From Pseudoduganella albidiflava (GTDB lineage Bacteria; Pseudomonadota; Gammaproteobacteria; Burkholderiales; Burkholderiaceae_D), in contig NZ_CP036401.1 in NCBI RefSeq assembly GCF_004322755.1, positions 2,852,001 through 2,916,000 on the forward strand: a DNA stretch of 64,000 nt, written 5' to 3'. The position numbers and the translations under genes were made by a program. This document shows positions 6,501 to 33,794 of this stretch, piece by piece (positions within the stretch are counted from its first letter, which is position 1; each line of letters starts with the position of its first letter). The notes below the pieces were generated by a model that saw only the letters and a program-made list of their open reading frames with translations, was not told the DNA's origin and did not search any database.

Positions 6501-6994
6501 GCCACTACGAGATTGCGTATACCTGCACGGTGCTGGACGAAGGCCAGCCTGGCGACCGGGTGTCGGACATGAACATGTTCTGGCAGGCCCGCATGGCGCG
6601 GCCGCTGTCCGGCAAGCTGGCCGACTACGACAGGGTGCCGATGTTCTACGCTGGCATCGGAGGCAACCACAACGCCACCACGCGGTTCCGGCGTTACGAC
6701 GGGAGCGGCGAGCGGCGATTGCTGCAGGAATATACCGACAGTCCTTACCTGCTGAAGGGGAATCACCCTTACCGGATCCGCATCGTCGTCGATGGCGGCG
6801 GTACCCGGCTGTATGTCGACGGGGTGCAGTATTTCGCGTCGCGCCAGCGGGTTGGCGCCGGCCTGTTCGGGTTCCGCACCACGCTGTCGCGGCAGCGCAT
6901 CACCGATTTCGCCGTGTTTCGTTTGGCCGACCCCCTGTCCAAGCGAACGATCGTGCCAAAAGGGTCCCGCACGCGGGCCGCCACTTCAGGGTAA
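3590..6994 (+). CDS. Secreted YetA / exo-rhamnogalacturonan-lyase-like protein with C-terminal DUF6250-type domain
   Basis: A 1134-residue exported protein. The ATG at 3590 has a strong AGGAG five bases upstream and starts a signal with a twin-arginine-like 'DRRKLLKL' and a cut near ARAAA. The open frame runs back to 2573, but that part overlaps the receptor and is not coding. Residues ~35-120 resemble the N-terminal RIFT-barrel of PcRGLX/YetA proteins ('FGVPWPQGQV', 'WPLAWWPDGSIKWSAHA'). A central beta-sandwich and an alpha/alpha toroid follow ('FWDYGDVMHTYD', 'WDNSELSTDIWLWHYFL'). The last ~220 residues ('LLVRDDFRTFDARRWRVE', then 'YDRVPMFYAGIGGNHN') look like a jelly-roll DUF6250 module. 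Family knowledge suggests release of unsaturated sugars from rhamnogalacturonan; the exact activity is inferred. Confidence 0.75.
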   Translation: MDRRKLLKLTALLAGAPTMAMSPARAAADTALAPPETTTLGWLDGAPPASFTGATFGVPWPQGQVPRGSGFTMRAAGGAAPPLQSWPLAWWPDGSIKWSAHAIGAGEPAASYGLQPGPAVPAEAGMARREGDGIVVDTGKLRARVPGKGGQVLAEVALAGHTLLRGGELVLLTDGVDDGEDGEDGDRRRRRWQGEVAQAEIEQDGPVRTVLKLTGTHRAGDGPGLLPFTLRLEFHRGSEAIRLLHTFVVDVDPARLDVRGIGLRFGTALDGAPHDRHVRFTSAAGGVFAESVRGLTGLRRDVGDDNAALQVAGLPLPPVEQLPKAVRDGLQYVPAFGDYRLLQPNADGFTIAKRTAKGHGWIPAGGGTRAGGTAYLGGAKGGVAFGVRNFWQSHPGQIDITGAAGDAAAVTLWLWAPEAPAMQLRFFHDGMGQDTHAKQRAALDITYEDYEPGFASPYGIARTSELELQLLPATPTAAGLAAIGQRIAQPPRLMATPGRLHAAGVFSEYWAPAGAPAGTPAGRGGARAKALANRLQTRLAQLFDYYRGQVEQRRWYGFWDYGDVMHTYDARRHQWRYDVGGFAWDNSELSTDIWLWHYFLHSGRADAFRLAEAMTRHTGEVDVHHIGPFSPLGTRHGVQHWGDSAKQLRISTAINRRFMYYLTADERIGDLLVEQQDAVRRLRDIAPGRKIGQQPAGGANEASVGFGTDWGAIAGAWFTAWERTGDKAWRDKLLASMRTIAAQPKGFFTGSAVMDLDTGAFRIAASDKIAVSHLSAVFGLTEICAELLRTLPEPAFRAAWLQYCRLYNATPEAQKAELGQALGPLNLSQGHARLLGYAAVQASGMTERQALIREAWRLFDAGKAGLREADFAVRRVSRPAVLDDIDEAPRISTNGAAQWGLGALGLLALDARAAPAGTLLVRDDFRTFDARRWRVEAEQGDPREVVTVRNGALVLDTRGGLTVWLTQPLDGHYEIAYTCTVLDEGQPGDRVSDMNMFWQARMARPLSGKLADYDRVPMFYAGIGGNHNATTRFRRYDGSGERRLLQEYTDSPYLLKGNHPYRIRIVVDGGGTRLYVDGVQYFASRQRVGAGLFGFRTTLSRQRITDFAVFRLADPLSKRTIVPKGSRTRAATSG

Positions 6995-7120: not shown

Positions 7121-9319
7121 ATGACCATCGAACGTAATGACGACAACCAGGACGTCCGCCGCGAGCAGCAACTGCGCGCGGACGCGCTGGAGTACCATCG
7201 CTTCCCCACCCGCGGCAAGATCGAAGTGGTGCCGACCAAGCCGCTGTCGAACCAGCGCGACCTGTCGCTGGCCTATTCGCCGGGCGTGGCCTACGCCTGC
7301 GAGGAAATCGCCGCCAACCCGGCTGCCGCCGCCGAATACACGTCGCGCGCCAACCTGGTGGCCGTGATCTCGAACGGTACCGCGGTGCTTGGCCTGGGCA
7401 ATATCGGCCCGCTGGCCTCGAAGCCCGTCATGGAAGGCAAGGGCTGCCTGTTCAAGCAGTTCGCCGGTGTCGACGTGTTCGACATCGAGCTGGCCGAGAA
7501 CGACCCCGACAAACTGGTGGATGCCATCGCCATGCTGGAACCGACGGTGGGCGGCATCAACCTGGAAGACATCAAGGCGCCCGAATGCTTCTACATCGAG
7601 AAGAAGCTGCGCGAGCGGATGAACATCCCCGTCTTCCACGACGACCAGCACGGCACCGCGATCATTTCCAGCGCCGCGCTGCTGAACGCGCTGAAGGTCG
7701 CCAACAAGCGCATCGGCGACATCAAGCTGGTCGCCTCCGGCGCCGGCGCCGCGGCGATCGCCTGCCTGGACATGATGGTGGGCCTGGGCGTGCGCCGCGA
7801 GAACGTCTACGTGACCGACTCGCGCGGCGTGATCTGGCAGGGCCGCGAAGCCAATATGGAAGCCAATAAGGCGCGCTATGCGCAGGCCACCGATGCGCGC
7901 ACGCTGGCCGACATCGTGCGCGGCGCCGACGTGTTCCTGGGCTGCTCGACGGCCGGCGTGCTGACCGGCGAGATGGTCAAGACGATGGCCGAGCGCCCCG
8001 TCATCCTGGCGCTGGCCAATCCGGAACCGGAAATCCGCCCCGAGGTGGCGCTGGCCGCGCGGCCGGACTGCATCATCGCCACCGGCCGTTCGGATTACCC
8101 GAACCAGGTCAACAACGTGCTGTGCTTCCCGTACATCTTCCGCGGCGCGCTCGATTGCGGCGCCACCCGGATCACCGAGGAAATGAAGCAGGCGTGCGTG
8201 GTGGCGATCGCCGCGCTGGCCGAGGCCGAAGTATCGGAAACGGTGGCCGCCGCCTATGCCGGCCAGACGCTGGCCTTCGGCCCCGACTACATCATCCCGA
8301 AACCGTTCGACCAGCGCCTGATCTCCGCGATCGCGCCGGCGGTGGCCAAAGCGGCCGCGGAATCCGGCGTGGCCACCACGCCGATCGCCGACCTGGCCGC
8401 CTACCGCGCGCAGCTGGAACAGCAGGTCTACCACACCGGCCTGGTGATGAAGCCGCTGTTCACGGCCGCCAAGGCCGCGCAGAAGCGCGTGGTGTACGCC
8501 GAGGGTGACGAGGAGCGCGTGCTGCGCGCCGTGCAGACCGTGGTCGACGAAGGCCTGGCCAAGCCGGTGCTGGTGGGCGAGGGCGCCAAGGTGGAAGCGG
8601 CCATCGCCGCCGCCGGCCTGCGCCTGAAGCGCGGCACCGACTACACGCTGGCCGAACCGGGCGGCGCGGAGTCGACCGACCATGCGCTGGCGCTGCTGAA
8701 GTCCGGCGAAGCCGATGCCGTGATCTGCGGCCTGCGCGGCAGCATCGACACCCACCTGGAGCAGGTGCGCAACACCATCGGCCTGGCGCCGGGCGCCGAA
8801 GTGATGGCGACGATGAATGCGCTGGTGCTGGAAAAGCACACGCTGTTCGTCACCGACACGCACGTCAACGACGACCCGACCGCGCAGGAACTGGCCGCGA
8901 TCGCGCGCCTGGCCGCCGAGCAGGTGCGCCATTTCGGCCTGGAGCCGAAGGTCGCGCTGCTGTCGCACTCCACCGCCGGTTCTTCCGAGCGCCCGTCGGC
9001 CCGCAAGATGCGCGACGCCCGCGCGCTGCTGGCCCACGCGTCCCCGGACCTGCCGGTGATCGGCGAAGTGCAGGGCGACGTCGCGCTGGCCGGCGGCGTG
9101 ATCCCCGGCTTCACCGGTGAAGCCAACGTGCTGGTGATGCCTTCGCTGGACGCCGCCAACATCGCCTTCAACCTGCTGAAGGTCACGGGCGGCAAGGGCG
9201 TCACCGTCGGTCCCGTGCTGCTGGGTGCCGCACAACCCGTGCACGTGCTGGGCCCGGGCGCCACGGTGCGGCGCATCGTCAACATGACGGCGGTCGCTGT
9301 CGCCGGTGCCGTGCGTTGA
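7121..9319 (+). CDS. maeB: NADP-dependent malic enzyme with phosphotransacetylase-like domain
   Basis: Oxidative decarboxylation of malate to pyruvate with NADPH formation; cytosolic. It has 732 residues, close to the ~760 usual for the MaeB type. The ATG at 7121 follows a good AAGGAG. The N-terminal malic domain contains 'SLAYSPGVA' and '[10 protein letters not shown]'. The NAD(P)-binding part has '[16 protein letters not shown]' and 'ALANPEPEI'. From about residue 430 comes a phosphate acetyl/butyryl-transferase-like domain ('[14 protein letters not shown]', '[10 protein letters not shown]'), which in this family is regulatory rather than catalytic. It stands alone and ends in a strong terminator. 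Confidence 0.95.
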
Positions 9320-9340
9320 TCGGCTTTGCCGGGTAAATGA

Positions 9341-9371
9341 AAGGGCCGCCGGCATGCCGGCGGCCCTTTTT
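9341..9371 (+). terminator. Rho-independent terminator of maeB
   Basis: Perfect stem GGGCCGCCGGC / GCCGGCGGCCC with a 2-nt loop, followed by TTTTT. It lies 22 bp after the maeB stop. Confidence 0.9.
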
Positions 9372-9544
9372 GCATGCGGGCGCAAGCTGCGACCCGGCGA
9401 ACCGATGGGGCGTGGCGATGGCGATCGGCGGGCTTGCCAGCCTGCGGCTGTGCAGTGTGCCTATCCCGGAACCGCTGGCACGCAGGCTCGCGAACCGTTC
9501 ATCCGCCGCGCCATGCGGCCGTGGTGCCCGGCTTCGTCACGGCA

Positions 9545-9958
9545 TCACGCCTTGAAAGTGTTCAGCAACGTTACCGCTGGCGAAACGCCGTAGATCTTGC
9601 GGCCCGTCTTCGCCGCCTCGATGATGTCGATGAGTTCCTGGTACTTGTCGGCCTGCCGCTCCTCCAGGTTGGTCATGTTCATGGTCCAGCGCACGAAGGT
9701 GCGGAAGGCTGCGGGCTCGTTATACAGGAGGCGCAGGTCGTGGTGGCGGGGATCCTTGCCGATCTTGTCATACAGCGATGCCAGGGTGGCGGCGGAGCCT
9801 TCCAGTACCTGCATGAACCAGCCGCCGTTGTAGAACAGGCTTCCGGTGACATCGATCCGTGCGTTATTGGCTTTCGCCTGCGCCCAGAGAGCGGCCAGTT
9901 CGTCCTTGCCCGGTTTGCCGGTGGATTGACTCAGGTATACGAGTTGATGGAGTGACAT
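9545..9958 (-). CDS. BLUF-domain blue-light sensor protein
   Basis: A 137-residue stand-alone BLUF (blue-light sensing using FAD) protein. The hallmarks are in order: 'LVYLSQ' with the light-active Tyr near residue 8, 'NNARIDVTGSLFY' with the flavin-contacting Asn, 'GWFMQVLEG' with the key Gln, 'DPRHHDLRLLY', and a C-terminal 'VRWTMNM' strand. Such short proteins signal by protein-protein contact, since no output domain is fused. It is transcribed toward maeB and diverges from the small secreted protein at 10206. The Shine-Dalgarno sequence is poor. The partner is not evident in this window. Confidence 0.88.
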   Translation of the reverse strand: MSLHQLVYLSQSTGKPGKDELAALWAQAKANNARIDVTGSLFYNGGWFMQVLEGSAATLASLYDKIGKDPRHHDLRLLYNEPAAFRTFVRWTMNMTNLEERQADKYQELIDIIEAAKTGRKIYGVSPAVTLLNTFKA

Positions 9959-10205
9959 GACAGGGGAGAGTGGGTGGGTGGGGGGCTGGTTTTCCTGGCC
10001 TAGTCTAACCGGCCTTCGTCCCTTTCAGGCGTTCGCTAACCTTCAGGGCGCCATCGCGCTCTGATAAGGTAGTCTTGCTGTACAGCCCGGACCTGCGGAA
10101 ACGTCCGCAATCCGGGCTCGTGGTCCGCCACGACCGCGGCTGGGTTCGCGCCGGGTGCGGGCCACGGTCTTCCATGCAAGGCGGATATCGATCGGAGAGC
10201 GGGCC

Positions 10206-10577
10206 ATGCGCAGTGTGCGTCTACTACGGGGTTGTATTCCTGTATTCGTTGCTTCATTCGTGGTCGCCAGTTCGTCCGGCGCGCCGGTCAAACCTGTCAA
10301 GCCCGAACCGCCGAAAACCAGGGAACAATGCGCCGCCAGGGGAGGCGAGTGGATGCTGTACCCGTTGGGGCCGTTCCATTTCTGCGCCGTGAAGACCAGC
10401 GACCGGGGCAAGGCCTGCGCCGACGACAGTGAATGCCAGGGCGACTGCGTTCCCGTGGAAGAGCCATCGGCACGGCCGGGCGCGAGGCCCGGCGTGTGTG
10501 CGCCGACGCTGCCGATGCCGGGCGGTTGTCCGCGGCACCTGGTGGACGGGAAGCTCGTCGAAGACCCCTGCATCTGA
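10206..10577 (+). CDS. Small Cys-rich secreted protein of unknown function
   Basis: 123 residues. The ATG at 10206 follows a GGAGAG and starts a short signal peptide (RLLRG-CIPVFVASFVVASSSG). The mature part is Pro-rich at first (PVKPVKPEPPK). It then has cysteine-bearing motifs 'EQCAARGGEWM', 'HFCAVKTSDRGKACADDSEC', 'CVPVEE', 'GVCAPTLPM' and 'GGCPRHL', ending in 'DPCI', a pattern that suggests several disulfides in the periplasm or outside. I do not recognise a named family. Translation from the frame opening at 10155 would add a non-signal tail and is unlikely. Confidence 0.65.
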   Translation: MRSVRLLRGCIPVFVASFVVASSSGAPVKPVKPEPPKTREQCAARGGEWMLYPLGPFHFCAVKTSDRGKACADDSECQGDCVPVEEPSARPGARPGVCAPTLPMPGGCPRHLVDGKLVEDPCI

Positions 10578-10632
10578 CGTTGTTACGACATGCGGGAAGC
10601 TGGGCGGGCCGGATAGCCCAACTGGTCATCGC

Positions 10633-10683
10633 TTGACTCGGATGTGTCCTGCTTGTAAGATTGATTATCTTATTGCAATAAGA
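10633..10683 (+). promoter_or_regulatory. Sigma-70-type promoter with overlapping 16-bp palindrome
   Basis: TTGACT (10633-10638), a 17-bp spacer, then TAAGAT (10656-10661). The perfect palindrome TCTTATTGCAATAAGA (10668-10683) begins about where transcription would start, a typical place for a repressor. It serves the PEP-CTERM gene at 10712. Confidence 0.6.
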
Positions 10684-10711
10684 CCAATTCACCAACTCAC
10701 CTACGGATACC

Positions 10712-11470
10712 ATGGATTTCCCGCGCTCGCTCATTACCGCCCTGGCCCTGTCGATCGGCATGACGACCGCTGCGTCAGCCGCCGGCCCCATCGAAACGCT
10801 TTATGACGGCAACGGCAGCCCGGCCGCGCAGGGATGGTCCGCGGGCGGCCGCGGCACGCAACTCCCGAGTGAGGGAATAACGCAGTTCATGACGGCGAAC
10901 GACACGCCTCGCACCAGCCAGTTCCAGTACTTCCAGTACGCCACCGGCGCCACCGACTACATTGCTTCGATCCGGCTGCTGGTCGTGTCGTCGAGCTACA
11001 ACCTGATGGACGCGGCGCTGACGTTCAATCCGTTCAACGTGCTGCTGACGCCCGCTTCCAGGGCGAATACCTTCATGATCGGCAACGATGTCGTCGCGTG
11101 GGGCGACCTGCAGGGCGCTTCGCACACACTCGATACCAACATCTTCCATGACTATGCGTTCCGCTACAACGGCGGCAAGCTGGACCTGTATATCGATGCC
11201 TCGTTTGCCGACATCGCGTCCGGCACGGCCAGCGCGGTCCTCAGCAGGACGTTGATGGATCCGGTCTTCGGCACGCTGTCGGGCGGCATCACGTGGGGCG
11301 ATGCGACGAACGACTTCGGCTACGACTCCAATTATCTGGTCGACAACGTCAAGTTCCAGGACCTGGGAGCGGTGTCCCCGGTCCCGGAGCCGTCGACGTA
11401 CGCGATGATGGGCCTGGGCCTGGCAGGTCTCCTGCTCGGATCCCGTCGCCGCGGCGGCCAGGCTTCGTAA
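10712..11470 (+). CDS. PEP-CTERM sorting-domain protein
   Basis: 252 residues. The N-terminal signal peptide ends near ASAAG. The body is a beta-rich lectin- or LamG-like region with no catalytic motif that I can name. The end is the classic PEP-CTERM signal: 'VPEPSTYAMMGLGLAGLLLG' followed by a basic SRRRGG tail. Family knowledge: such proteins are handled by an exosortase, usually in exopolysaccharide-making Gram-negatives. No exosortase gene lies in this window. It is monocistronic, with its own promoter and terminator. Confidence 0.85.
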   Translation: MDFPRSLITALALSIGMTTAASAAGPIETLYDGNGSPAAQGWSAGGRGTQLPSEGITQFMTANDTPRTSQFQYFQYATGATDYIASIRLLVVSSSYNLMDAALTFNPFNVLLTPASRANTFMIGNDVVAWGDLQGASHTLDTNIFHDYAFRYNGGKLDLYIDASFADIASGTASAVLSRTLMDPVFGTLSGGITWGDATNDFGYDSNYLVDNVKFQDLGAVSPVPEPSTYAMMGLGLAGLLLGSRRRGGQAS

Positions 11471-11513
11471 CCGGTCCCACGATCCGCGCATTGCTGGTCG
11501 GCGCGGACATTCC

Positions 11514-11538
11514 AGAAGGCGCACAGTGCGCCTTCTTT
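11514..11538 (+). terminator. Rho-independent terminator after the PEP-CTERM gene
   Basis: AGAAGGCGCA / TGCGCCTTCT stem with a 3-nt loop, followed by TTT, 43 bp after the stop. Confidence 0.8.
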
Positions 11539-11720
11539 CGACTCAAAATTTGCAACTAACCGAAAGATGAAGTAAAGCGATCGACCTCGCCTGAACCAAC
11601 GGATCCACCGCCCGGGCCGACAGGGCGAACGGTTTCGCACCGCCGCGGCGTGCCGCCACCCGTGCACCACACCACCGCCAGCCATGCTAACGTCCGCCTT
11701 TTCGCAACAAGGAGCAGCCA

Positions 11721-25470: not shown

Positions 25471-26481
25471 ATGACTCAACTGGAAAGTCCCTTCGAACTG
25501 GTCTGTCCCGCCGGCAGCTTGCCGGCCCTGAAAGGCGCCGTGGACAATGGCGCAGACTGCGTGTACCTGGGTTTTCGCGACGCCACCAATGCCCGCAACT
25601 TCGCCGGCCTCAATTTCGACGACAAGGCGATCGCCGCCGGCATCGCCTATGCGCATGCACGGCGGCGCAAGGTCCTGCTCGCGCTCAATACCTATCCGCA
25701 ACCTGGCGGCGAAGCGCTGTGGAGGGGCGCCATCGACCGCGCCGCCTCGGCCGGGGTGGACGCGGTGATCCTGGCCGACCCGGGCCTGATGCGCTACGCC
25801 GCCGAATTCCACCCGGGCCTGCGGCTGCACCTGTCCGTGCAGGGCTCGGCGACGAACGTGGAAGCCATCGAGTTCTACCGGCGCGAGTTCGGCATCGCCC
25901 GGGCTGTACTGCCGCGCGTGCTGTCGCTGGCCCAGGTCGAGCAGGTGGTCTCCAATACGGCCGTCGAGATCGAGGTCTTCGGGTTCGGCAGCCTGTGCGT
26001 GATGGTCGAAGGACGCTGCGCGCTGTCGTCCTACGCCGCCGGCGAATCGCCCAACACGCATGGCGTCTGTTCGCCGGCCGGCGCGGTGCGCTGGCAGCAG
26101 CGGCCCGAGGGGCTGGAGGCACGCCTGAACGGCGTTCTCATCGACCGCTACGGCCCTGGCGAACATGCCAGCTATCCCACCCTGTGCAAGGGGCGTTTCG
26201 AGGTGGCCGGCGAAACCTACTACGCCATCGAGGAGCCGGCCAGCCTGAATACACTGGAGCTGTTGCCAACGCTGATGGCGATGGGCGTGGCGGCGATGAA
26301 GATCGAAGGCCGCCAGCGCAGCCCCGCCTATGTGGCGCAGGTGACGCGGGTGTGGCGCGAGGCGATCGACAGCGCCCGCGCCGGGCGCTTTTCCGCGAAG
26401 CCGGCATGGATGGCGCAACTCGATGCCGTGGCCGAGGGCCGGCAGCACACGCTGGGCGCGTATCACCGCGCCTGGAAATGA
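25471..26481 (+). CDS. ubiU: O2-independent ubiquinone biosynthesis protein UbiU (peptidase U32 family)
   Basis: 336 residues. UbiU and UbiV form a [4Fe-4S] heterodimer that hydroxylates the ubiquinone ring without O2. Cysteines at 176, 183, 200 and 239 ('GSLCVMVEGRC', 'THGVCSP', 'PTLCKG') have the spacing 7-17-39 that I recall for E. coli UbiU. The start 'MTQLESPFELVCPAGS' at 25471 is chosen over an upstream opening at 25324. The Shine-Dalgarno sequence is weak. It is the first gene of ubiUVT, likely switched on without oxygen by the box upstream. It could be misnamed a protease or collagenase. Confidence 0.93.
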   Translation: MTQLESPFELVCPAGSLPALKGAVDNGADCVYLGFRDATNARNFAGLNFDDKAIAAGIAYAHARRRKVLLALNTYPQPGGEALWRGAIDRAASAGVDAVILADPGLMRYAAEFHPGLRLHLSVQGSATNVEAIEFYRREFGIARAVLPRVLSLAQVEQVVSNTAVEIEVFGFGSLCVMVEGRCALSSYAAGESPNTHGVCSPAGAVRWQQRPEGLEARLNGVLIDRYGPGEHASYPTLCKGRFEVAGETYYAIEEPASLNTLELLPTLMAMGVAAMKIEGRQRSPAYVAQVTRVWREAIDSARAGRFSAKPAWMAQLDAVAEGRQHTLGAYHRAWK

Positions 26482-26489
26482 CGGGAGAA

Positions 26490-27395
26490 ATGATGATGAT
26501 GAAGCTAGCAATCGGGCCGCTTCTGTACTACTGGCCGCGCGCCACCGTGATGGACTTCTACGAGGCGGTAGCCGCCGGTCCGGCAGATGTTGTCTACCTG
26601 GGCGAAGCGGTGTGTTCGCGCCGGCACGAGCTGCGCGCGGCGGACTGGCTGCAGGTCGCCGGCCGGTTGCGCGACGCCGGCAAGGAGGTCGTGTTGTCCA
26701 GCATGGCGCTGATCGAGTCCGGTTCCGACGTGGCAGCGCTGCGCCGGCTGGCAGCACAGGAGGCTTTCGCCGTGGAGGCCAACGACATGGGGGCCGTCGG
26801 CCTGCTGCACGGCCGCCCCTTCGTGGCCGGCCCGCACCTGAACATCTACAACGCCGCCACGCTGCTGTTGCTGCATGGCCTGGGCGCGCGGCGCTGGGTC
26901 ATGCCACTGGAGATGGGGCAAGCCGGGCTGGAGGAACTGCAGAGCACGCGTCCGGAAGGCATGGAGACGGAAGTGTTCGCGCTGGGCCGCATGCCGCTGG
27001 CCTTCTCGGCGCGCTGCTTCACGGCGCGCCAGCGCAACCTGCCAAAGGATGACTGCCGTTTCAGCTGCATCGAGCATCCGGACGGCCTGGACATGACCAC
27101 GCGCGACGGCAAGCCGTTTCTCGTGCTGAACGGCATCCAGACGCAGTCCGCCTCCGTGTGCAACCTGGCCGCCGAGTTCGAAGCGCTGCGCACGGCCGGC
27201 GCCGACGTGCTGCGCATCAGCCCCCAGTCGCGCCATGCGATGGAGGTCGTGGCGCTGTTCGACGACCTGCGCCGCGGCCGCGCCACACCCGAAGCCGCAT
27301 CGCGTTCGCTGCTGCCGCTGCTGCCCGGGCCCGCATGCGACGGCTACTGGCACGGCAGGCCGGGCCTCGAGTGGCAGGCAGGGAGCGCGGCATGA
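26490..27395 (+). CDS. ubiV: O2-independent ubiquinone biosynthesis protein UbiV
   Basis: Partner of UbiU. Four ATGs in a row (26490-26501) follow GGGAGA. Starting at the fourth (26499) puts the first cluster cysteine at residue 39, as in E. coli, and that start may be the true one. The other three cluster cysteines are in 'SARCFTARQRNLPKDDC' and 'RFSC', with spacings 13 and 4 as in E. coli UbiV. The gap to ubiU is 8 bp and the stop overlaps ubiT in ATGA, so the three genes are made together. Confidence 0.93.
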   Translation: MMMMKLAIGPLLYYWPRATVMDFYEAVAAGPADVVYLGEAVCSRRHELRAADWLQVAGRLRDAGKEVVLSSMALIESGSDVAALRRLAAQEAFAVEANDMGAVGLLHGRPFVAGPHLNIYNAATLLLLHGLGARRWVMPLEMGQAGLEELQSTRPEGMETEVFALGRMPLAFSARCFTARQRNLPKDDCRFSCIEHPDGLDMTTRDGKPFLVLNGIQTQSASVCNLAAEFEALRTAGADVLRISPQSRHAMEVVALFDDLRRGRATPEAASRSLLPLLPGPACDGYWHGRPGLEWQAGSAA

Positions 27396-27907
27396 GGGGC
27401 CTGGACCATGCTGCCGACGGCGCGGCATCGCCGGCGGGCCAGCCCGGCGGCCTGCCGGCCTTCGTGGGCGCCTTCGGCAGCCGCTTGCCGCCGTGGCCCG
27501 GCTCGGCGCTGTTCGCCGCCGGCCTGAACGTCGCACTGCGGTGCCGGCTGCCGGACGATGTACTTGAACGGCTCTCCGGCCGCAGCCTGCGCATTAGCGT
27601 CCGGGACGCCGGCGTTGCCTTCGACGTGAGCTGGAATGGCAAGCGATTCGTACCAGGATCCGTGGCGGGACAGCCCGACCTGGAAATTGCCGCCGGTGCG
27701 GCCGACATGATGGCGCTGCTGCGCCGCGAGGCTGATCCAGACACGCTGTTCTTCGGCCGCCGCCTGTCCATGCAAGGCGATACCGAACTGGGGCTGCTAG
27801 TAAAAAACACCCTGGACGGGCTCGACATCGACCTGCCGCCACCCCATCCGCTGGCGGTGCTGCGCTGGCTGCGGGAACAGGACCGGCAGCGACAGGCGCC
27901 GCGCTAG
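27392..27907 (+). CDS. ubiT: Ubiquinone anaerobic biosynthesis accessory factor UbiT (SCP2 domain)
   Basis: 171 residues; lipid-binding SCP2 protein. In E. coli, UbiT is needed with UbiUV for anaerobic ubiquinone and is thought to hold the hydrophobic intermediates. The SCP2 core is visible: 'SLRISVRDAGVAFDVSW', 'PDLEIAAGAADMMALLRRE' and 'PDTLFFGRRLSMQGDTELG' followed by LLVKN. The ATG at 27392 overlaps the ubiV stop. It is convergent with nrdG, with only 6 bp between the stops. Confidence 0.88.
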   Translation: MRGLDHAADGAASPAGQPGGLPAFVGAFGSRLPPWPGSALFAAGLNVALRCRLPDDVLERLSGRSLRISVRDAGVAFDVSWNGKRFVPGSVAGQPDLEIAAGAADMMALLRREADPDTLFFGRRLSMQGDTELGLLVKNTLDGLDIDLPPPHPLAVLRWLREQDRQRQAPR

Positions 27908-27913
27908 CATCGA

Positions 27914-28612
27914 TCACGCGTGGCGCAACAGGACCTTGCCGAACCGGCCGCGCAATGCGGCCATCAGTGCATCCGGGGGATACGCCGCCGCGCTGGTCAA
28001 TCCGGCATCGGCGCAACCCTGCGCGCGAAATTGCTGGATGACCCAGTGGCGTACCCCCAGCGCCGAAAGCTCATCGGCCATGGCGAGCAAAGCGGTTGGC
28101 GGCAGCAGGGCTGGATGCACGGTGGTGCGGCACTCGCTGGCGACACCGGACGCGATGATCCCGGCAACGCAGGCACGGGCGGGAACGCCGCTGCCCGGCA
28201 CACCCGTCACCGTTTCATAGTCGGCGAACGGTGCCTTCACGTCGAAGCCTACCCAGTCGACCAGGTGCAGGATGGCATGCAGCCGTTCGGGATACAGGCA
28301 CGCCGTATGCAGCCCGACCTTGAAGCCGAGCGCGCGCACCTGCCGCATCGCTTCCGGCAGCGCCGCGTCGGTGGTCGGTTCGCCGCCGCTGAACACCACG
28401 GCGTCCAGCAGGCCGCGGCGCCGTTCCAGGATCGCCAGGAGGTCGCGCCAGTCCAGCGGGCTGCGCGGCGGGCGGACCTGCAGGTGGGGATTGTGGCAAT
28501 ACCCGCAGCGCCAGGCGCAGCCCTGCACGAATACCACCGCGGCCAGGTGGCCGGGGTAGTCGGTGGCGGTGAACGGCGTGAAGCCACCCACGTTCAGCGG
28601 GCGGCCCGCCAT
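27914..28612 (-). CDS. nrdG: Anaerobic ribonucleoside-triphosphate reductase activating protein
   Basis: 232-residue radical-SAM activase that installs the glycyl radical on the class III reductase. The cluster motif is 'CAWRCGYC' (CxxxCxxC), preceded by 'TATDYPGHLAAVVFVQG'. 'FSGGEPTTDAALPEAM' is the GGE SAM-binding strand. Its ATG overlaps the stop of the 65-residue gene (ATGA), so it is coupled to the piece that carries the glycine it would activate. Confidence 0.93.
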   Translation of the reverse strand: MAGRPLNVGGFTPFTATDYPGHLAAVVFVQGCAWRCGYCHNPHLQVRPPRSPLDWRDLLAILERRRGLLDAVVFSGGEPTTDAALPEAMRQVRALGFKVGLHTACLYPERLHAILHLVDWVGFDVKAPFADYETVTGVPGSGVPARACVAGIIASGVASECRTTVHPALLPPTALLAMADELSALGVRHWVIQQFRAQGCADAGLTSAAAYPPDALMAALRGRFGKVLLRHA

Positions 28613-28809
28613 CAGCCTGCCGCCTGCGGGGGCGCCGCGGCAGCCTCGCGGAAGTACAGCCGCTCGTGGAACTCGCCCTGCTTGCCGGTGTTGAACGACG
28701 CGACGGGGCGGTGGTAGCCCATCACGCGTGTCCAGATTTCACAGGGCTGGCGTTCCGGGTCGTCGGCGCGCAGTGCAGTGGGCAGTTCGGCTGGAATAAC
28801 GGGGTTCAT
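28612..28809 (-). CDS. Separate glycyl-radical domain of class III ribonucleotide reductase
   Basis: 65 residues. The core 'CEIWTRVMGYHRP' followed by 'FNTGKQGEFHERLYF' is the C-terminal glycyl-radical loop normally found at the very end of NrdD (E. coli has RVCGY with Gly681, then a NAGKQEE motif). The radical glycine would be Gly31. Its ATG overlaps the nrdD stop (ATGA) and its stop overlaps the nrdG start (ATGA). It must supply the radical in trans to the 679-residue NrdD, which ends at its zinc site without this loop. A frameshift product joining the two is the alternative. Confidence 0.85.
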   Translation of the reverse strand: MNPVIPAELPTALRADDPERQPCEIWTRVMGYHRPVASFNTGKQGEFHERLYFREAAAAPPQAAG

Positions 28810-30845
28810 GCTGACTCCTTCAGTGGTTGGCAAGTGGAAGCGCGCTGCCGCCGTTCGAGCAGGTCAGCGTCGCATTTCGGGCAAAACGGGTGGTGGCCCG
28901 ACAGGTAGCCGTGCTTCGGGCAGATCGAGAACGTGGGCGTGACGGTGATGTAGGGCAGGCCGAAGCGGGTCAGCGCGCGCTTGACCAGTTCACGGCAGGC
29001 TTGCGCGCTGGATACGGCTTCCGTCATGTACAGGTGCAGCACGGTGCCGCCCGTGTACTTGCGCTGCAATGCATCCTGCCGTTCCAGCGCCTCGAACGGA
29101 TCGTCCGTGAAGCCCACCGGCAGCTGCGAGGAATTGGTGTAGTACGGCATGTCGGCGGTACCGGCCTGCAGGATGCAGGGAAAGCGCTTGCGGTCTTCGC
29201 GGGCGAAGCGGTATGTCGTGCCCTCGGCCGGCGTCGCCTCCAGGTTGTACATGTGGCCCGTCTGTTCCTGGAACTCCAGCATGCGCGCGCGCACATGGTC
29301 GAGCAGCCGCAGTGCCAGCGCGTGGCCGCGCGGGTCGGTGATGTCGTAGCGGTCGCCGGAATAGTTGCGGATCATCTCGTTCACGCCATTCACGCCCAGC
29401 GTGGAAAAATGGTTGCGCAGCGTGCCGAGGTAGCGTTTCGTGTACGGGAACAGGCCGTTGTCCATGTGGCGCTGGATTACCTTGCGCTTGATCTCCAGGC
29501 TCTGGCGGCCCAGCTCCAGCAGGCGGTCCAGCGCGGCCAGCAGGGCCGCTTCGTCGTCCGGATGCAGGTGGCCGAGGCGGGCACAGTTGATGGTGACCAC
29601 GCCCAGCGAACCGGTCTGCTCGGCCGAGCCGAACAGGCCGTTGCCCCGTTTCAGCAGCTCGCGCAGGTCCAGCTGCAGCCGGCAGCACATCGAGCGGATC
29701 ATGTTCGGCTGCAGTTCCGAATTGATGAAGTTCTGGAAGTAGGGCAGGCCATAGCGCGCCGTCATGCCGAACAGCAGGTCGGCGTTCGGGCTGTCCCATG
29801 CGAAATCGGCCGTGATGTTGTAGGTCGGGATCGGGAACGTGAAGGCGCGGCCCCTGGCGTCGCCCGCCATCATGACCTCGATGTAGGCGCGGTTGACCAT
29901 GTCCATTTCCGGCTGCAGGTCGCCATACGTGAAGGGCTGCTCGGCGCCGGCAATCACCGGTACCTGTTCGCGCAGGTCTTCGGGACAGGTCCAGTCGAAC
30001 GTCAGGTTCGTGAACGGCGTCTGCGTGCCCCAGCGCGACGGCACGTTCAGGTTGTAGACCAGCTCCTGGATGGCCTGGCGCACGGCCTCGTATGGCAACG
30101 CATCCTTGCGCACGTATGGCGCCAGATAGGTGTCGAAGGAACTGAACGCCTGTGCGCCGGCCCATTCGTTCTGCAGCGTGCCGAGGAAATTGACGATCTG
30201 CCCGCATGCGCTGGACAGGTGCCGCGGCGGTGCGGACTCCACCTTGCCGGGCACGCCGTTCAGGCCCTCCGCCAGCAGCGTGCGCAGCGACCAGCCGGCG
30301 CAATAGCCAGCCAGCATGTCCAGGTCGTGGATATGCAGGTCGGCGTCACGGTGGGCCTGGCCCACTTCGGGCGGATACACGTGGTTCAGCCAGTAGTTGG
30401 CGATCATCTTGCCCGATACGTTCAGGATCAGGCCACCCAGCGAATAGCCCTGGTTGGCGTTGGCGTTCACGCGCCAGTCCTGTCGCCGGAGGTACTCCTC
30501 GATCGAGGTTTCCACGTCGACCAGCGAACGGCGCGTCTGGCGCAGCGTGCGGTGCTGCTCGCGGTAGATCACGTAGCGCCGCAGCGTGTGGCGGTAGCCT
30601 GCGTCGTAGAGCACGCTCTCGACATGGTCCTGCACCTCCTCGACGGAGAGCGGGGCTTCGCGGGCAGCCTGGAGCCGGCGTACGGTATTGTAGGCCAGGC
30701 GCTGCGCGGCTTCCTCGCCGTACTCGCCGCTGGCGGTGCCGGCGCGCCGCAGGGCCGAGAGGATCTTGGCGGCGTCGAATGCCTGCATGCTGCCGTCGCG
30801 CTTGACGATGGTGTGCAGCGGTTTCGGTTCGGTGGTCGGGGTCAC
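28806..30845 (-). CDS. nrdD: Anaerobic ribonucleoside-triphosphate reductase large chain, lacking its C-terminal glycyl loop
   Basis: 679 residues. Class III reductase that makes dNTPs without O2. The GTG start at 30845 is supported by CAAGGAG upstream. An ATP-cone lies at ~10-95 ('IVKRDGSMQAFDAAKILSAL'). The barrel follows, with 'YSLGGLILNVSGKMIANYW', 'DLHIHDLDMLAGYCAGW', 'MIRSMCCRLQLDLREL' and 'GVNGVNEMIRNYSGDRYDI'. The C-terminal zinc site is 'CPKHGYLSGHHPFCPKC'. The chain then stops after ~24 residues; the RVxGY radical segment that should follow is on the next, overlapping gene. Confidence 0.93.
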   Translation of the reverse strand: MTPTTEPKPLHTIVKRDGSMQAFDAAKILSALRRAGTASGEYGEEAAQRLAYNTVRRLQAAREAPLSVEEVQDHVESVLYDAGYRHTLRRYVIYREQHRTLRQTRRSLVDVETSIEEYLRRQDWRVNANANQGYSLGGLILNVSGKMIANYWLNHVYPPEVGQAHRDADLHIHDLDMLAGYCAGWSLRTLLAEGLNGVPGKVESAPPRHLSSACGQIVNFLGTLQNEWAGAQAFSSFDTYLAPYVRKDALPYEAVRQAIQELVYNLNVPSRWGTQTPFTNLTFDWTCPEDLREQVPVIAGAEQPFTYGDLQPEMDMVNRAYIEVMMAGDARGRAFTFPIPTYNITADFAWDSPNADLLFGMTARYGLPYFQNFINSELQPNMIRSMCCRLQLDLRELLKRGNGLFGSAEQTGSLGVVTINCARLGHLHPDDEAALLAALDRLLELGRQSLEIKRKVIQRHMDNGLFPYTKRYLGTLRNHFSTLGVNGVNEMIRNYSGDRYDITDPRGHALALRLLDHVRARMLEFQEQTGHMYNLEATPAEGTTYRFAREDRKRFPCILQAGTADMPYYTNSSQLPVGFTDDPFEALERQDALQRKYTGGTVLHLYMTEAVSSAQACRELVKRALTRFGLPYITVTPTFSICPKHGYLSGHHPFCPKCDADLLERRQRASTCQPLKESA

Positions 30846-30918: not shown

Positions 30919-31296
30919 TCAGAATGGCATGGGCTGCCGGGTGGCGGCGACCGTCACGATGTAGCCGAAGAGCGCCAGCGCGGCTGCCAGTGCGGCGATC
31001 CGCACGCGCACGGTGCGGCCATACCTGAGCGCGATGGCGCCCAGCACGATGTAGGCGCACAGCGCGAGCACCTTGGCGGTCAGCCACGGCTGCGCGAACG
31101 GGTACTGCCCGCTCAGCGTTGCCAGGCCGATCGCGCTGGCCAGCAGGCCGGTATCGACCAGGTGCGGCAGGGTACGCACCCATCGCCGGCGCAGCATGTC
31201 CGGCATGGCCAGCATCCAGATGCCACGCAACAGGAACAGCGTGCCGCTGGCCGTCACGCAGGCGATGTGCACATGGCGCAGCGCGAGGTAGTCCAT
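30919..31296 (-). CDS. SirB-family membrane protein
   Basis: 125 residues with four hydrophobic segments, matching the SirB family (a small membrane family whose role is unclear). Starts 'MDYLALRHVHIACVTASG' and has 'PHLVDTGLLASAIGLA' and 'TAKVLALCAYIVLGAIAL'. It lies 12 bp after the DUF2249 gene and 73 bp before nrdD, so it is probably in one transcript with them. Confidence 0.8.
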   Translation of the reverse strand: MDYLALRHVHIACVTASGTLFLLRGIWMLAMPDMLRRRWVRTLPHLVDTGLLASAIGLATLSGQYPFAQPWLTAKVLALCAYIVLGAIALRYGRTVRVRIAALAAALALFGYIVTVAATRQPMPF

Positions 31297-31308
31297 GATG
31301 TGTCCCCG

Positions 31309-31611
31309 CTATTCCCCGGTGGCGAGGAAGTCGATGACGATCTCGCCGGGTGTCCGGGACACGTAGCGGGCCCTGACGCGCGGGCCGTAATACTGGCCTA
31401 TCTGGCGCAGCAGGGGCAGCGGGTCGTGGTCGTTGTAGAAGCGCATGATCTCGCCGGGTGTCAGGGCGTCGAGCGCGCCGAAGATGGCGGCATGGCGGAA
31501 GCGCCTCGCCACGCCGCGCGCATCGAACGGGTGGACTGCGTGCCCGCTGTCGGGCTGGCTGGCATCGTGCGGCGCGTCGTGGACGGCGGGGTGCGAACAG
31601 TGGTGGGACAT
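31309..31611 (-). CDS. DUF2249-type protein with His-rich N-terminus
   Basis: 100 residues. The start at 31611 follows CCCCAGGAG. The first ~30 residues are His-rich (MSHHCSHPAVHDAPH). The rest is a compact TusA-like DUF2249 domain: 'FDARGVARRFRHAAIFGALD', 'LTPGEIMRFYNDHDPLPLLRQ' and 'GEIVIDFLATGE'. Relatives sit near hemerythrin and denitrification genes. First gene of the minus-strand operon that ends with nrdG, and divergent from the NsrR-like regulator. Confidence 0.75.
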   Translation of the reverse strand: MSHHCSHPAVHDAPHDASQPDSGHAVHPFDARGVARRFRHAAIFGALDALTPGEIMRFYNDHDPLPLLRQIGQYYGPRVRARYVSRTPGEIVIDFLATGE

Positions 31612-31727
31612 GGCGGCTCCTGGGGTTGTCGCTGGTCCTGCGCCCGGCGGGATGCCGGCGGCCATCAGCGAAACATGTGGCGATTGTAGGGAGGCCTGGC
31701 CGGCAATGCACCGCCGAACCCGCTTTT

Positions 31728-31771
31728 CTTAATCCAGGTTATGAACGCCGGCGGCGGACCCGTTGAATAAT
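31728..31771 (+). promoter_or_regulatory. 16-mer box and -10 of the NsrR-like gene
   Basis: CTTAATCCAGGTTATG (31728-31743) is an imperfect FNR/Dnr-like dyad. AATAAT (31766-31771) begins 30.5 bp from its centre, the same spacing as at ubiU. The identical 16-mer stands before nnrS (47944). On the other strand, TACAAT (31688-31683) could serve the DUF2249 operon. Confidence 0.55.
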
Positions 31772-31810
31772 CGGTCGGTTCGCCGGCATGTGCCGGCCGG
31801 AGGATTTGCC

Positions 31811-32260
31811 ATGCGACTGACGAGCTGCACCGACTACGCGCTGCGCACCCTGATCTACCTCGCCGCGCGGCCGCGCCGGCTGGTGACGATCGCCGAGATC
31901 GCCGCATATCACGGAATTCCAAAAAACCATCTCACCAAGGTGGTCCAGCGCCTGGGGCGCGCAGGCATGCTGCGCACCGTGCGCGGGCGGCAGGGCGGCA
32001 TCGCGCTGGGGGTGCCGGCCGAGGCGATCCGCATCGGCGCCGTGGTGCGGGCCACCGAGCCGGATTTACGGATGGTCCCTTGCTTTGCCGGTGCCGCCGC
32101 AGCCTGCCCCGAGGCCGGTACCTGCACGCTGCAGGGGGTCCTGGCGCGGGCTGCCCGGGCGTGGCTTGCGGAACTCGATGGAGCGACATTGGCCGACGTG
32201 GCGCATGGGGGGACAGTGGCGTTGCCGGCCTTGCTGCCTGCATGCGGGGCAGCCGCCTAG
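31811..32260 (+). CDS. nsrR: Rrf2-family regulator, NsrR-like
   Basis: 149 residues. NsrR is a [Fe-S] repressor that lets go of DNA when NO attacks the cluster. Winged helix 'MRLTSCTDYALRTLIYLAAR', 'TIAEIAAYHGIPKNHLTKVV' and 'VRGRQGGIALG'. Three cluster cysteines at 91, 99 and 105 ('PCFAGAAAACPEAGTC'), like NsrR and spaced a little more widely than in E. coli (91, 96, 102). The ATG at 31811 is behind CCGGAGG. Context (nar, nnrS, hemerythrin) favours NsrR over IscR. Confidence 0.83.
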   Translation: MRLTSCTDYALRTLIYLAARPRRLVTIAEIAAYHGIPKNHLTKVVQRLGRAGMLRTVRGRQGGIALGVPAEAIRIGAVVRATEPDLRMVPCFAGAAAACPEAGTCTLQGVLARAARAWLAELDGATLADVAHGGTVALPALLPACGAAA

Positions 32261-32417
32261 CGATTGGCCGGTGCCGGGAGAGCGCTGGCGCTGCGGGAGC
32301 CCCCTGGCCGAAGGCAGCAGGCCGGCTCGATGCCAACATCGGGCGGCGACGGACCCCTGCAGGCCGGCCGCCAATCCGTGATCAACGTGGTATTCCGGTA
32401 GCGCCCGGACCCCGGAA

Positions 32418-32507
32418 CTAGTCCTTCCGGCCAGTTCCGCCTACCTCTTTGCGCCAGCCCCTCACGCAGTTCGGCCAATTGGCGCGGGGCGGCTGGCCGC
32501 GTACGCT
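32418..32507 (+). promoter_or_regulatory. narK1 promoter region with CTAGTC box
   Basis: CTAGTCCTTCCG starts at 32418, followed by AGTTCC. A possible -10, TACGCT, is at 32502-32507. The same 12-mer is at the narG promoter and a related pair is at moaA. No clear FNR box lies at -41.5. Confidence 0.5.
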
Positions 32508-32537
32508 GGTGGCATCGCGCAGAGCGTCGGAGAAAAC

Positions 32538-33794
32538 ATGAACAACAATGCAGGAAAAGCCAACCGGGTGCTGGTCGCCAGCACTTTTTCGTTCACGGTG
32601 TGTTTTGCCGTGTGGATGATGTTCGCGGTGCTGGGCATCCCCATCAAGAAGATGCTGGGACTGAACGAAACCCAGTTCGGCCTGCTGGCGGCGATGCCTG
32701 TACTGTCCGGCGCGCTGGTGCGGGTACCCCTGGGGATCTGGACCGACCGCTTCGGTGGCCGCATCGTGTTCTTCGGCGTGATGCTGGCGACCGTGATTCC
32801 CGTGGCGCTGATCGGCCGTGCCACGCAGTACTGGCAGTTCCTTGCGCTGGGCCTGCTGCTCGGGCTGGCCGGCGGCTCGTTCTCGGTGGGCACGCCCTAC
32901 GTCGCACGCTGGTTCCCGAAGGAGCGCAAGGGTCTGGCCATGGGCATCTTCGGCGCCGGCAATTCCGGCTCGGCGCTGACCAAGTTCGTCGCGCCCGGCA
33001 TCATCGCGACCTGGGGCTGGCAGGCGCTGCCCGGCGTGTATGCCGCTGCGCTGCTGGTGACCGCGCTGCTGTTCTGGGTGTTCTCGGCCACCGATCCCGC
33101 CCACAACGTCGTGTCGACCGCTTCGTTCTCCGGCCAGCTGGAGGTCCTGAAGGACCGCCGCGTGTGGCGCTACTGCCAGTACTACTCGGTGGTGTTCGGC
33201 GGCTACGTGGGCCTGGCGCTGTGGATGACCAAGTACTACGTTGCCGAATACGGTTTCGACCTGGGCCTGGCCGCCTTGCTGGCCGCCTGCTTCTCGCTGC
33301 CCGGTGGCGTGCTCCGCGCCCTCGGCGGCTGGGTGTCCGACAAGTACGGCGCCTACAAGGTGACGTGGTGGGTGATGTGGGTGTGCTGGGTGTGCTTCTT
33401 CCTGCTGTCGTATCCGCCAACCAGCATGCAGGTGAAGACCGTCGACGGTGCGCTGATGGTCGATCTGGCGCTGTCGCCCTCTGTGTTTACCGCACTGCTG
33501 TTCGTGGCCGGTACCGCGATGGCCATCGGCAAGGCTTCGGTGTTCAAGTTCATCGGCGACGAATTCCCCGACAACATCGGCGCCGTCTCCGGCGTGGTCG
33601 GCCTGGCCGGTGGCCTCGGCGGCTTCGTGCTGCCGATCATGTTCGGTGCGCTGCTCGACCTCACCGGCGTGCGCTCGTCCGCCTTCATGCTGCTGTACGG
33701 CACCGTGTGCGTGTCGCTGGTGTGGATGCACTTCTCGTTCCGCCCTGCTGGCGCCGCGCTGGCGCGGATGCCCGTGGCCGTCGCCGCGCGTTGA
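32538..33794 (+). CDS. narK1: Nitrate/nitrite transporter, NarK1 type (MFS)
   Basis: 418 residues with 12 membrane helices. Nitrate/proton symporter type by family. The NNP signature glycine-rich stretches are seen in 'GLLLGLAGGSFSVGTPYVAR' and 'GKASVFKFIGDEFPDNIGAV'. 'RVPLGIWTDRFGGR' is the MFS loop motif. The ATG at 32538 follows CGGAG. It is followed after 49 bp by a second NarK, the usual K1-K2 pair of betaproteobacteria that brings in nitrate and exchanges it for nitrite. Confidence 0.92.
   Translation: MNNNAGKANRVLVASTFSFTVCFAVWMMFAVLGIPIKKMLGLNETQFGLLAAMPVLSGALVRVPLGIWTDRFGGRIVFFGVMLATVIPVALIGRATQYWQFLALGLLLGLAGGSFSVGTPYVARWFPKERKGLAMGIFGAGNSGSALTKFVAPGIIATWGWQALPGVYAAALLVTALLFWVFSATDPAHNVVSTASFSGQLEVLKDRRVWRYCQYYSVVFGGYVGLALWMTKYYVAEYGFDLGLAALLAACFSLPGGVLRALGGWVSDKYGAYKVTWWVMWVCWVCFFLLSYPPTSMQVKTVDGALMVDLALSPSVFTALLFVAGTAMAIGKASVFKFIGDEFPDNIGAVSGVVGLAGGLGGFVLPIMFGALLDLTGVRSSAFMLLYGTVCVSLVWMHFSFRPAGAALARMPVAVAAR

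Follow-up and report, generated by a model that had tools for sequence, protein, structure and literature searches.

A probable two-chain class III ribonucleotide reductase in Pseudoduganella albidiflava, with the glycyl-radical loop on a separate 65-residue protein

The class III ribonucleotide reductase (RNR) of Pseudoduganella albidiflava is divided over two genes, and the loop that carries the glycyl radical is encoded by the smaller one. Ribonucleotide reductase is essential, and the stable glycyl radical of its anaerobic form is taken to sit on the catalytic chain. The genes lie in a stretch of 64,000 nucleotides (nt) that we analysed as a whole and call the window (contig NZ_CP036401.1 of assembly GCF_004322755.1, positions 2,852,001–2,916,000). 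On its minus strand, nrdD (30845–28806) is followed by a small open reading frame (ORF; 28809–28612) and by nrdG (28612–27914). Comparison with related loci makes it very probable that these genes encode an obligate two-chain class III RNR, in which NrdG would charge the small chain and the radical would work across the chain boundary. Two genes are present and conserved, the small gene is independent of nrdD in position and frame and is under selection, and no other copy of it was found in the genome. The features of the locus are as follows.

28806..30845, minus strand: nrdD, large chain with ATP-cone, barrel and zinc site and without the glycyl-radical loop; 679 residues, GTG start (PF13597 positions 2–535, PF03477, NF006126, Foldseek)
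30549..30812, minus strand: ATP-cone, NrdD residues 12–99 (PF03477, E = 3.3e-17)
29682..29687, minus strand: codons of C387–C388, where the thiyl radical is expected (SMCCR finger loop); both invariant in a 40-row alignment, role suggested by the T. maritima NrdD motif
28872..28922, minus strand: presumed NrdD zinc site, C642-x2-H645 ... C655-x2-C658; invariant in the 40-row alignment
28815..28820, minus strand: AAGGAG inside nrdD, 5 nt ahead of the ATG of the small gene, for which it is the likely ribosome-binding site; read from the sequence
28806..28809, minus strand: ATGA overlap of nrdD stop and small-gene start; read from the sequence
28612..28809, minus strand: stand-alone glycyl-radical domain protein; 65 residues, ATG start (PF13597 positions 531–562); no second match in the genome, relatives under purifying selection
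28714..28728, minus strand: RVMGY motif of the small chain, residues 28–32; read in the sequence
28719–28717, minus strand: codon of Gly31 of the small chain within RVMGY, expected radical residue
28610..28614, minus strand: TGATG overlap of small-gene stop and nrdG start, one shared base; read from the sequence
27914..28612, minus strand: nrdG, radical-SAM activase of the NrdG2 type; 232 residues (TIGR02495, 178 bits against a cut-off of 131)

As an earlier note on this DNA had claimed, the 679-residue NrdD ends soon after its zinc site, 21 residues beyond the last zinc-site Cys, and lacks RVxGY, which is found on a separate ORF. The PF13597 family (NRDD, 562 positions) is divided over the two ORFs, with positions 2–535 on NrdD and positions 531–562 on the RVMGY-bearing small protein. 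The NrdD barrel reaches 568 bits against PF13597 and 452 bits against TIGR02487, each over the cut-off, and NrdD scores 1113 bits against NF006126. A Foldseek search with the large chain gave fold matches to solved class III RNRs. The 65-residue protein matches PF13597 with an E value of 2.1e-7 and 30.5 bits (cut-off 26.2), and matches no other Pfam family at E ≤ 0.001. The finger-loop cysteine of a class III NrdD is represented by C387 and C388, which are invariant in the 40-row NrdD alignment, and C642, H645, C655 and C658 occur there without exception. From family knowledge, we take the C-x2-H...C-x2-C motif to be the zinc site and Gly31 to be the glycyl-radical residue. An NrdG activase (TIGR02495, over the cut-off) stands alongside, and the C-terminal RVxGY loop of a class III NrdD is absent from the large chain and present only on the 65-residue chain. 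The SCCR motif of T. maritima NrdD, in the text available of PMC4493059, is the basis for the thiyl-radical role expected of C387/C388. The nrdD/small-ORF overlap is ATGA (28809–28806), as previously described; the overlap of the small ORF with nrdG, also given as ATGA before, instead reads TGATG (28614–28610), with one base in common.

The small-protein profile has one match in the whole P. albidiflava genome, which also contains a single NrdD and a single class I/II catalytic gene, whose frame is open over 986 residues. These counts bear out the earlier suggestion that the small chain is the only radical source here. We take the 986-residue RNR as class I, by its length and because it stands alone; if so, the split enzyme would be the sole route to deoxyribonucleotides without oxygen in this genome. 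In the proposed mechanism, the 679-residue chain would provide the ATP-cone, the barrel with the radical cysteine and the zinc site, and the 65-residue chain would bear the glycyl-radical loop. NrdG would place the radical on Gly31 of the small chain, whose loop would enter the barrel of the large chain and take hydrogen from C387 or C388 across the chain boundary. That the radical acts in trans is the best reading of the comparison, by which the small chain would bind the large chain, bear the radical and be exchangeable. The split could allow an oxygen-cut 65-mer to be replaced rather than a 679-mer, and viruses would also have acquired this exchangeable part, most likely to give the host NrdD a fresh radical domain.

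The small protein has 4991 homologues at E ≤ 1e-3 and 0.55–1.75 times the query length, which places the small ORF beyond chance. In an evenly drawn phylum sample, 34 of 299 genomes have an NrdD match, and in nine of them the domain lies in two separate frames; a tenth genome (G211) was scored as one match across stops, yet a separate small ORF is present. An order sample gave NrdD matches in 126 of 399 genomes and a class sample in 38 of 369, with many split pairs in each. The earlier note had proposed looking among homologues for NrdD chains with a small RVxGY ORF alongside, and 138 of 160 loci are of this split form (NrdD score of at least 400 against the window NrdD; some places fetched twice). 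The others comprise 12 fused loci and 10 without a small gene by a first filter. In six of these ten, the small gene adjoins nrdD, its frame being open far upstream; one locus runs off the end of its contig, and the other three are dislocated. The one small gene found in G305 shares a contig with nrdD, at a distance of about 9 kb. G347, a member of the same genus, has its only small gene and its nrdD on different contigs; the small gene stands 3.7 kb from the end of its contig, and nrdD is over 11 kb away from the ends of the other. The only small gene of G355 lies 2.2 kb downstream. In all three it is beside nrdG, so there the small gene travels with the activase and not with the barrel. Two genomes were left out of the dislocated count: G442, with nrdD at a contig end, and G439, a draft in which one 6.9-kb contig bears nrdG and the small gene and the only NrdD match is to the small piece.

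Loci from named genomes were also compared, taking the 80 nearest a viral sequence (best 80 of at least 557 relatives). In 75 the small ORF is separate and both nrdD and nrdG are close by; the other five are one fused locus, two with nrdG only, one with nrdD only and one with neither. Two Holosporaceae loci (L355, L371) show a small radical ORF and nrdG and no nrdD in the fetched stretch, which is a 3.8-kb contig in L371; either they hold a partial set or nrdD is elsewhere in the genome. Six genomes (G315, G356, G398, G435, G470, G641) have, besides the split NrdD, a second, single-chain NrdD match of another type (profile positions 1–560). The small protein matches 28 plasmid records, including Cupriavidus necator H16 pHG1, where nrdD, a small ORF annotated as nrdD and nrdG stand in the same split order. 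Fused forms occur on Acidiphilium and Actinomyces plasmids, and on two Allochromatium plasmids the small piece is the only piece of NrdD. On the Azospira sp. I09 plasmid pAZI09 (L050:1-5501), class I alpha, split nrdD, the small ORF, nrdG and class I beta are clustered, so that aerobic and anaerobic RNRs stand together on one plasmid. The order of pHG1 is also found in C. metallidurans CH34 by our own reading of unannotated DNA. The CH34 NrdDG is named as Rmet_5137 and Rmet_5139 in the available part of PMC2864759, so 5138 is left over.

Among known systems, YfiD/GrcA of E. coli and Y06I of phage T4 are likewise small stand-alone glycyl-radical domains acting in trans; they are activated by the radical-SAM enzyme of their partner, and a phage version exists (PMC8683613, PMC12338860, as far as their available text goes). 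E. coli GrcA works in trans for pyruvate formate-lyase (PFL), and a strain with PflB G734A and GrcA gave intermediate formate (PMC12338860, same extent). However, YfiD and Y06I serve PFL and repair the oxygen-cut enzyme, whereas the window domain belongs to a class III RNR and is the only radical carrier there. By sequence the 65-residue protein has no PFL-type domain, and it is not an extra copy beside an enzyme with its own domain, being the single match in its genome. The YfiD comparison drawn earlier thus holds for the logic of the system but not for homology, since the small protein descends with the C-terminus of NrdD itself (PF13597). The split class II RNR NrdJa/NrdJb of Pseudomonas aeruginosa likewise has its C-terminal domain as a separate gene product; that part, in the sections available of PMC5704485, is a cysteine-rich domain for terminal reduction, whereas the separate part in the window is the radical carrier.

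Free-standing relatives of the radical part also occur in viruses and plasmids, which the earlier note, correct about the separate host ORF, had not foreseen. We consider it fairly likely that free-standing class III glycyl-radical domains are a widespread viral and plasmid gene, charged by host NrdG and used by host NrdD, with the split RNR of the window as the cellular form. As part of the same proposal, such viruses of bacteria and archaea would carry the radical part alone, of at least 44 residues, with or without a zinc ribbon, and no catalytic RNR chain of their own. In a first scan of IMG/VR with the small-protein profile (best 80 of 181 relatives), neither NrdD nor NrdG was seen in the fetched stretch of 79 of the 80 viral loci. 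When 48 of the 80 records were searched over their full length, 47 held the C-terminal piece alone and one an NrdD body as well, and no class I/II catalytic match appeared in any; these records are linear and of unestablished completeness, so that absence of NrdD is not proven, and near-copies are still in the counts. The shortest viral small ORF has 44 residues. Among 116 nearest neighbours from 61 viral loci, the matches included integrase (4), portal (3), terminase large subunit (3) and endolysin (2), no family exceeding four among the 25 of 146 families listed. The large ORFs (83 of 113) of viral loci included helicase (4), terminase large subunit (4), portal (3), primase (3) and tail fibre (3), among the 25 of 290 families listed. 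The window small protein matched no INPHARED phage at 1e-5, and two viral small proteins matched only ANMV-1, a fecal contig and an Oceanotoga phage. The fecal match falls inside a full-length NrdD, and the Oceanotoga feature is annotated as a class III large subunit. The fecal phage contig (MT835493, L297:1030-3438) encodes this complete NrdD in a single frame; past the radical loop it has a tail like a thioredoxin fold, with a CPNC motif and, by eye, a resemblance to glutaredoxin.

ANMV-1, an archaeal virus (KP703175), has an 'nrdD' of 144 residues (L298:2680-3114) with two CxxC pairs and the glycyl loop. Like the small chain, it stands alone and amounts to no more than the C-terminal radical piece: PF13597 matches across the entire record are confined to C-terminal positions 519–562. 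A scan with ANMV-type loops (best 80 of 402 relatives) gave 56 stand-alone ORFs without an NrdD body at the locus, 13 full-length NrdDs and 11 outside the motif. Forty-two of the 56 stand-alone ORFs begin over 1500 bases into the fetched stretch. Full-length searches of 46 records chosen from these 56, together with ANMV-1, gave no part of NrdD other than the C-terminal piece (from profile position 482 onwards) in all 47; these viral records, too, are linear and of unestablished completeness, and near-copies are included. A CxxC...CxxC ribbon lies just upstream of the loop in 24 of 57 (the 56 ORFs and ANMV-1). A scan of INPHARED phages with the whole ANMV-1 protein found nothing. The unknown-function family phrog_4132 (179 positions) was considered as the ANMV-1 zinc-ribbon family and not borne out, as ANMV-type proteins match phrog_487 (NrdD) or nothing; its positions ~118–158 match the small proteins with E down to 4e-11, but it has a longer N-terminal part than they do. 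The ANMV-1 gene was published as an oxygen-sensitive ribonucleotide reductase (PMC4372165, available text), so in annotation a short viral 'nrdD' should not count as a ribonucleotide reductase.

Extra copies unlinked to nrdD occur in eight of 155 genomes (G367, G394, G457, G527, G538 with two, G614, G641 and G931), each of which also has the split enzyme; the 155 are genomes with an NrdD match, covering part of such genomes in the phylum, order and class samples, and G478, with a cut NrdD, falls outside the set. Several of the extra copies have phage-type genes around them: those of G527 and G614 lie by an endolysin, that of G367 near a helicase, that of G394 near a protein of the phage family phrog_6278 and one of G538 near a ParB-like protein. 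The G931 copy lies in a phage-type segment (L216, G931:C3) that combines a RecE-like exonuclease (2134-3135), the free glycyl-radical ORF (6303-6581) and a class I RNR large subunit (phrog_84; 8715-11603). Among the few ORFs scanned around the copies of G641, G457 and the other G538 copy, no phage-type gene was found; with an nrdG piece nearby, the G457 copy could be what is left of a second nrd locus. Of nine unlinked copies compared with the small protein of their own genome, four have it as best match; for four, between 2 and 10 of 128 others match as well or better; and for L208 it is no better than typical (76/127). The unlinked copies do not cleanly match the small protein of their own genome.

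By analogy with YfiD/Y06I and PFL, the viral copies probably supply host NrdD. They could instead be decoys that block host NrdD or NrdG, for example against competing phages, an explanation that we regard as possible but unlikely. Viral pieces could bind NrdD or NrdG competitively, and the absence of a class I/II catalytic gene from the piece-only records (0/48) fits this proposal. However, [TS]RxMGY is present in 80 of 80 first-scan viral loci, an only partly independent count because the glycine was part of one of the two viral search patterns. The motif would be superfluous in a pure decoy, so its retention speaks against the decoy, as does the phage T4 precedent, where Y06I restores its enzyme (PMC8683613, in the part available). 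If viral copies do supply host NrdD, spare parts would for the first time be known for a glycyl-radical enzyme besides PFL.

The small ORFs of the split loci, which were found by profile and not by motif, contain R-[VIS]-x-G-[YF] in 138 of 138 cases, and G31 is invariant across a 23-row small-protein alignment. Over a 38-residue core, linked host copies have a median dN/dS of 0.234 (2409 pairs, 129 distinct cores) and viral and unlinked copies one of 0.258 (194 pairs, 75 distinct cores); pairs share ancestry and so are not independent. No host or viral/unlinked core pair reaches a dN/dS of 1, and ANMV-type cores have a median of 0.23 (32 pairs). The small-protein cores are thus under purifying selection. 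The small protein might be a leftover or a regulator, with the large chain working without a glycyl radical, and the residue next to the glycine does vary in a few viral relatives (RCMGY in L291, L292, L293) and in one cellular copy (RSMGF in L025 of G211). The 138 of 138 conserved glycines make this quite improbable, as does the match of the small-protein profile in 144 of the 155 genomes; the 11 others comprise six with a single-chain NrdD, four with an NrdD fragment or partial weak match (G630, G833, G895, G998) and one with a fused form (G295).

Alternatively, programmed frameshifting at the ATGA overlap, or read-through of the stop codon there, could yield one fused chain. The 4-base overlap in the window, the existence of natural NrdD fusions and a small frame in phase with nrdD at 41 of 138 split loci are in keeping with this. 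However, at 131 distinct junctions the relative frame is spread about equally (remainders by three of 39, 46 and 46), the best small start lies −38 to +376 nt from the nrdD stop (starts chosen by rule, single cases possibly wrong), and the nrdD stop codons are mixed (TGA 89, TAA 26, TAG 16). The small gene also has its own AAGGAG ahead of the start and is located elsewhere in three genomes. Frames, spacing and dislocated genes speak against frameshifting and read-through, to which we give hardly any credence, and with the stop codons they support two chains over a frameshift product, the alternative that the earlier note had left to be decided. A sequencing or assembly error breaking a single nrdD, including the one-base error that would join the frames, has practically no chance of being correct, because the same break recurs in relatives from several collections, a separate small ORF stands near nrdD and nrdG in 75 of 80 named-genome loci, and no point was found in its favour.

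Three points weigh against the obligate two-chain enzyme or limit its support. First, AlphaFold was run on single chains only, so the case for docking of the chains is one of comparison. Second, the dN/dS cores were chosen by a glycine-containing motif and are silent on glycine loss. The fully conserved core letters were accordingly dropped as proof of a kept glycine, since the motif itself demanded them; that the glycine is kept follows from the profile-found ORFs and the 23-row alignment. Third, a single clade of split rows is not rejected (p-AU 0.46, with 77 of 146 rows after dropping four long or odd rows and keeping every second split row). In a quick tree of 146 distinct rows (short, X-bearing and equal rows dropped), six fused rows from one family form a supported clade (97) amid split rows. 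The quick tree suggests that the fused state was re-invented within the split group; the AU test does not decide.

The C. necator H16 enzyme was reportedly the subject of a 1999 study (Siedow et al.). The literature covered, seen in part and with the 1999 H16-enzyme paper outside it, contains no class III RNR whose glycyl loop belongs to a second chain and no viral stand-alone loop. In the accessible text of PMC3653736, split phage nrdD genes are cut by introns or inteins, one for unknown reasons, and none is described as detaching the glycyl loop. The glycyl domain is treated as C-terminal, and only class II is named as split, in the portion available of PMC9669993. For glycyl-radical enzymes, the available part of PMC8683613 gives only YfiD and Y06I as validated and spare parts for others as possible; the genes described here make spare parts beyond PFL directly testable. 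A two-chain form would part radical storage from catalysis, so that each could be charged, exchanged or damaged alone, and the small chain would be a 44–65-residue reagent for radical chemistry.

An Rfam scan gave no match near the nrd genes. They are flanked in the window by a U32-peptidase/SCP2 pair on one side (26472–27904, plus strand) and by SirB, DUF2249, Rrf2 and an MFS transporter on the other (30922–33791). The U32-peptidase-family and SCP2 pair is presumably UbiV/UbiT, encoded by ubiquinone genes. By our reading, this neighbourhood is suited to an anaerobic lifestyle.

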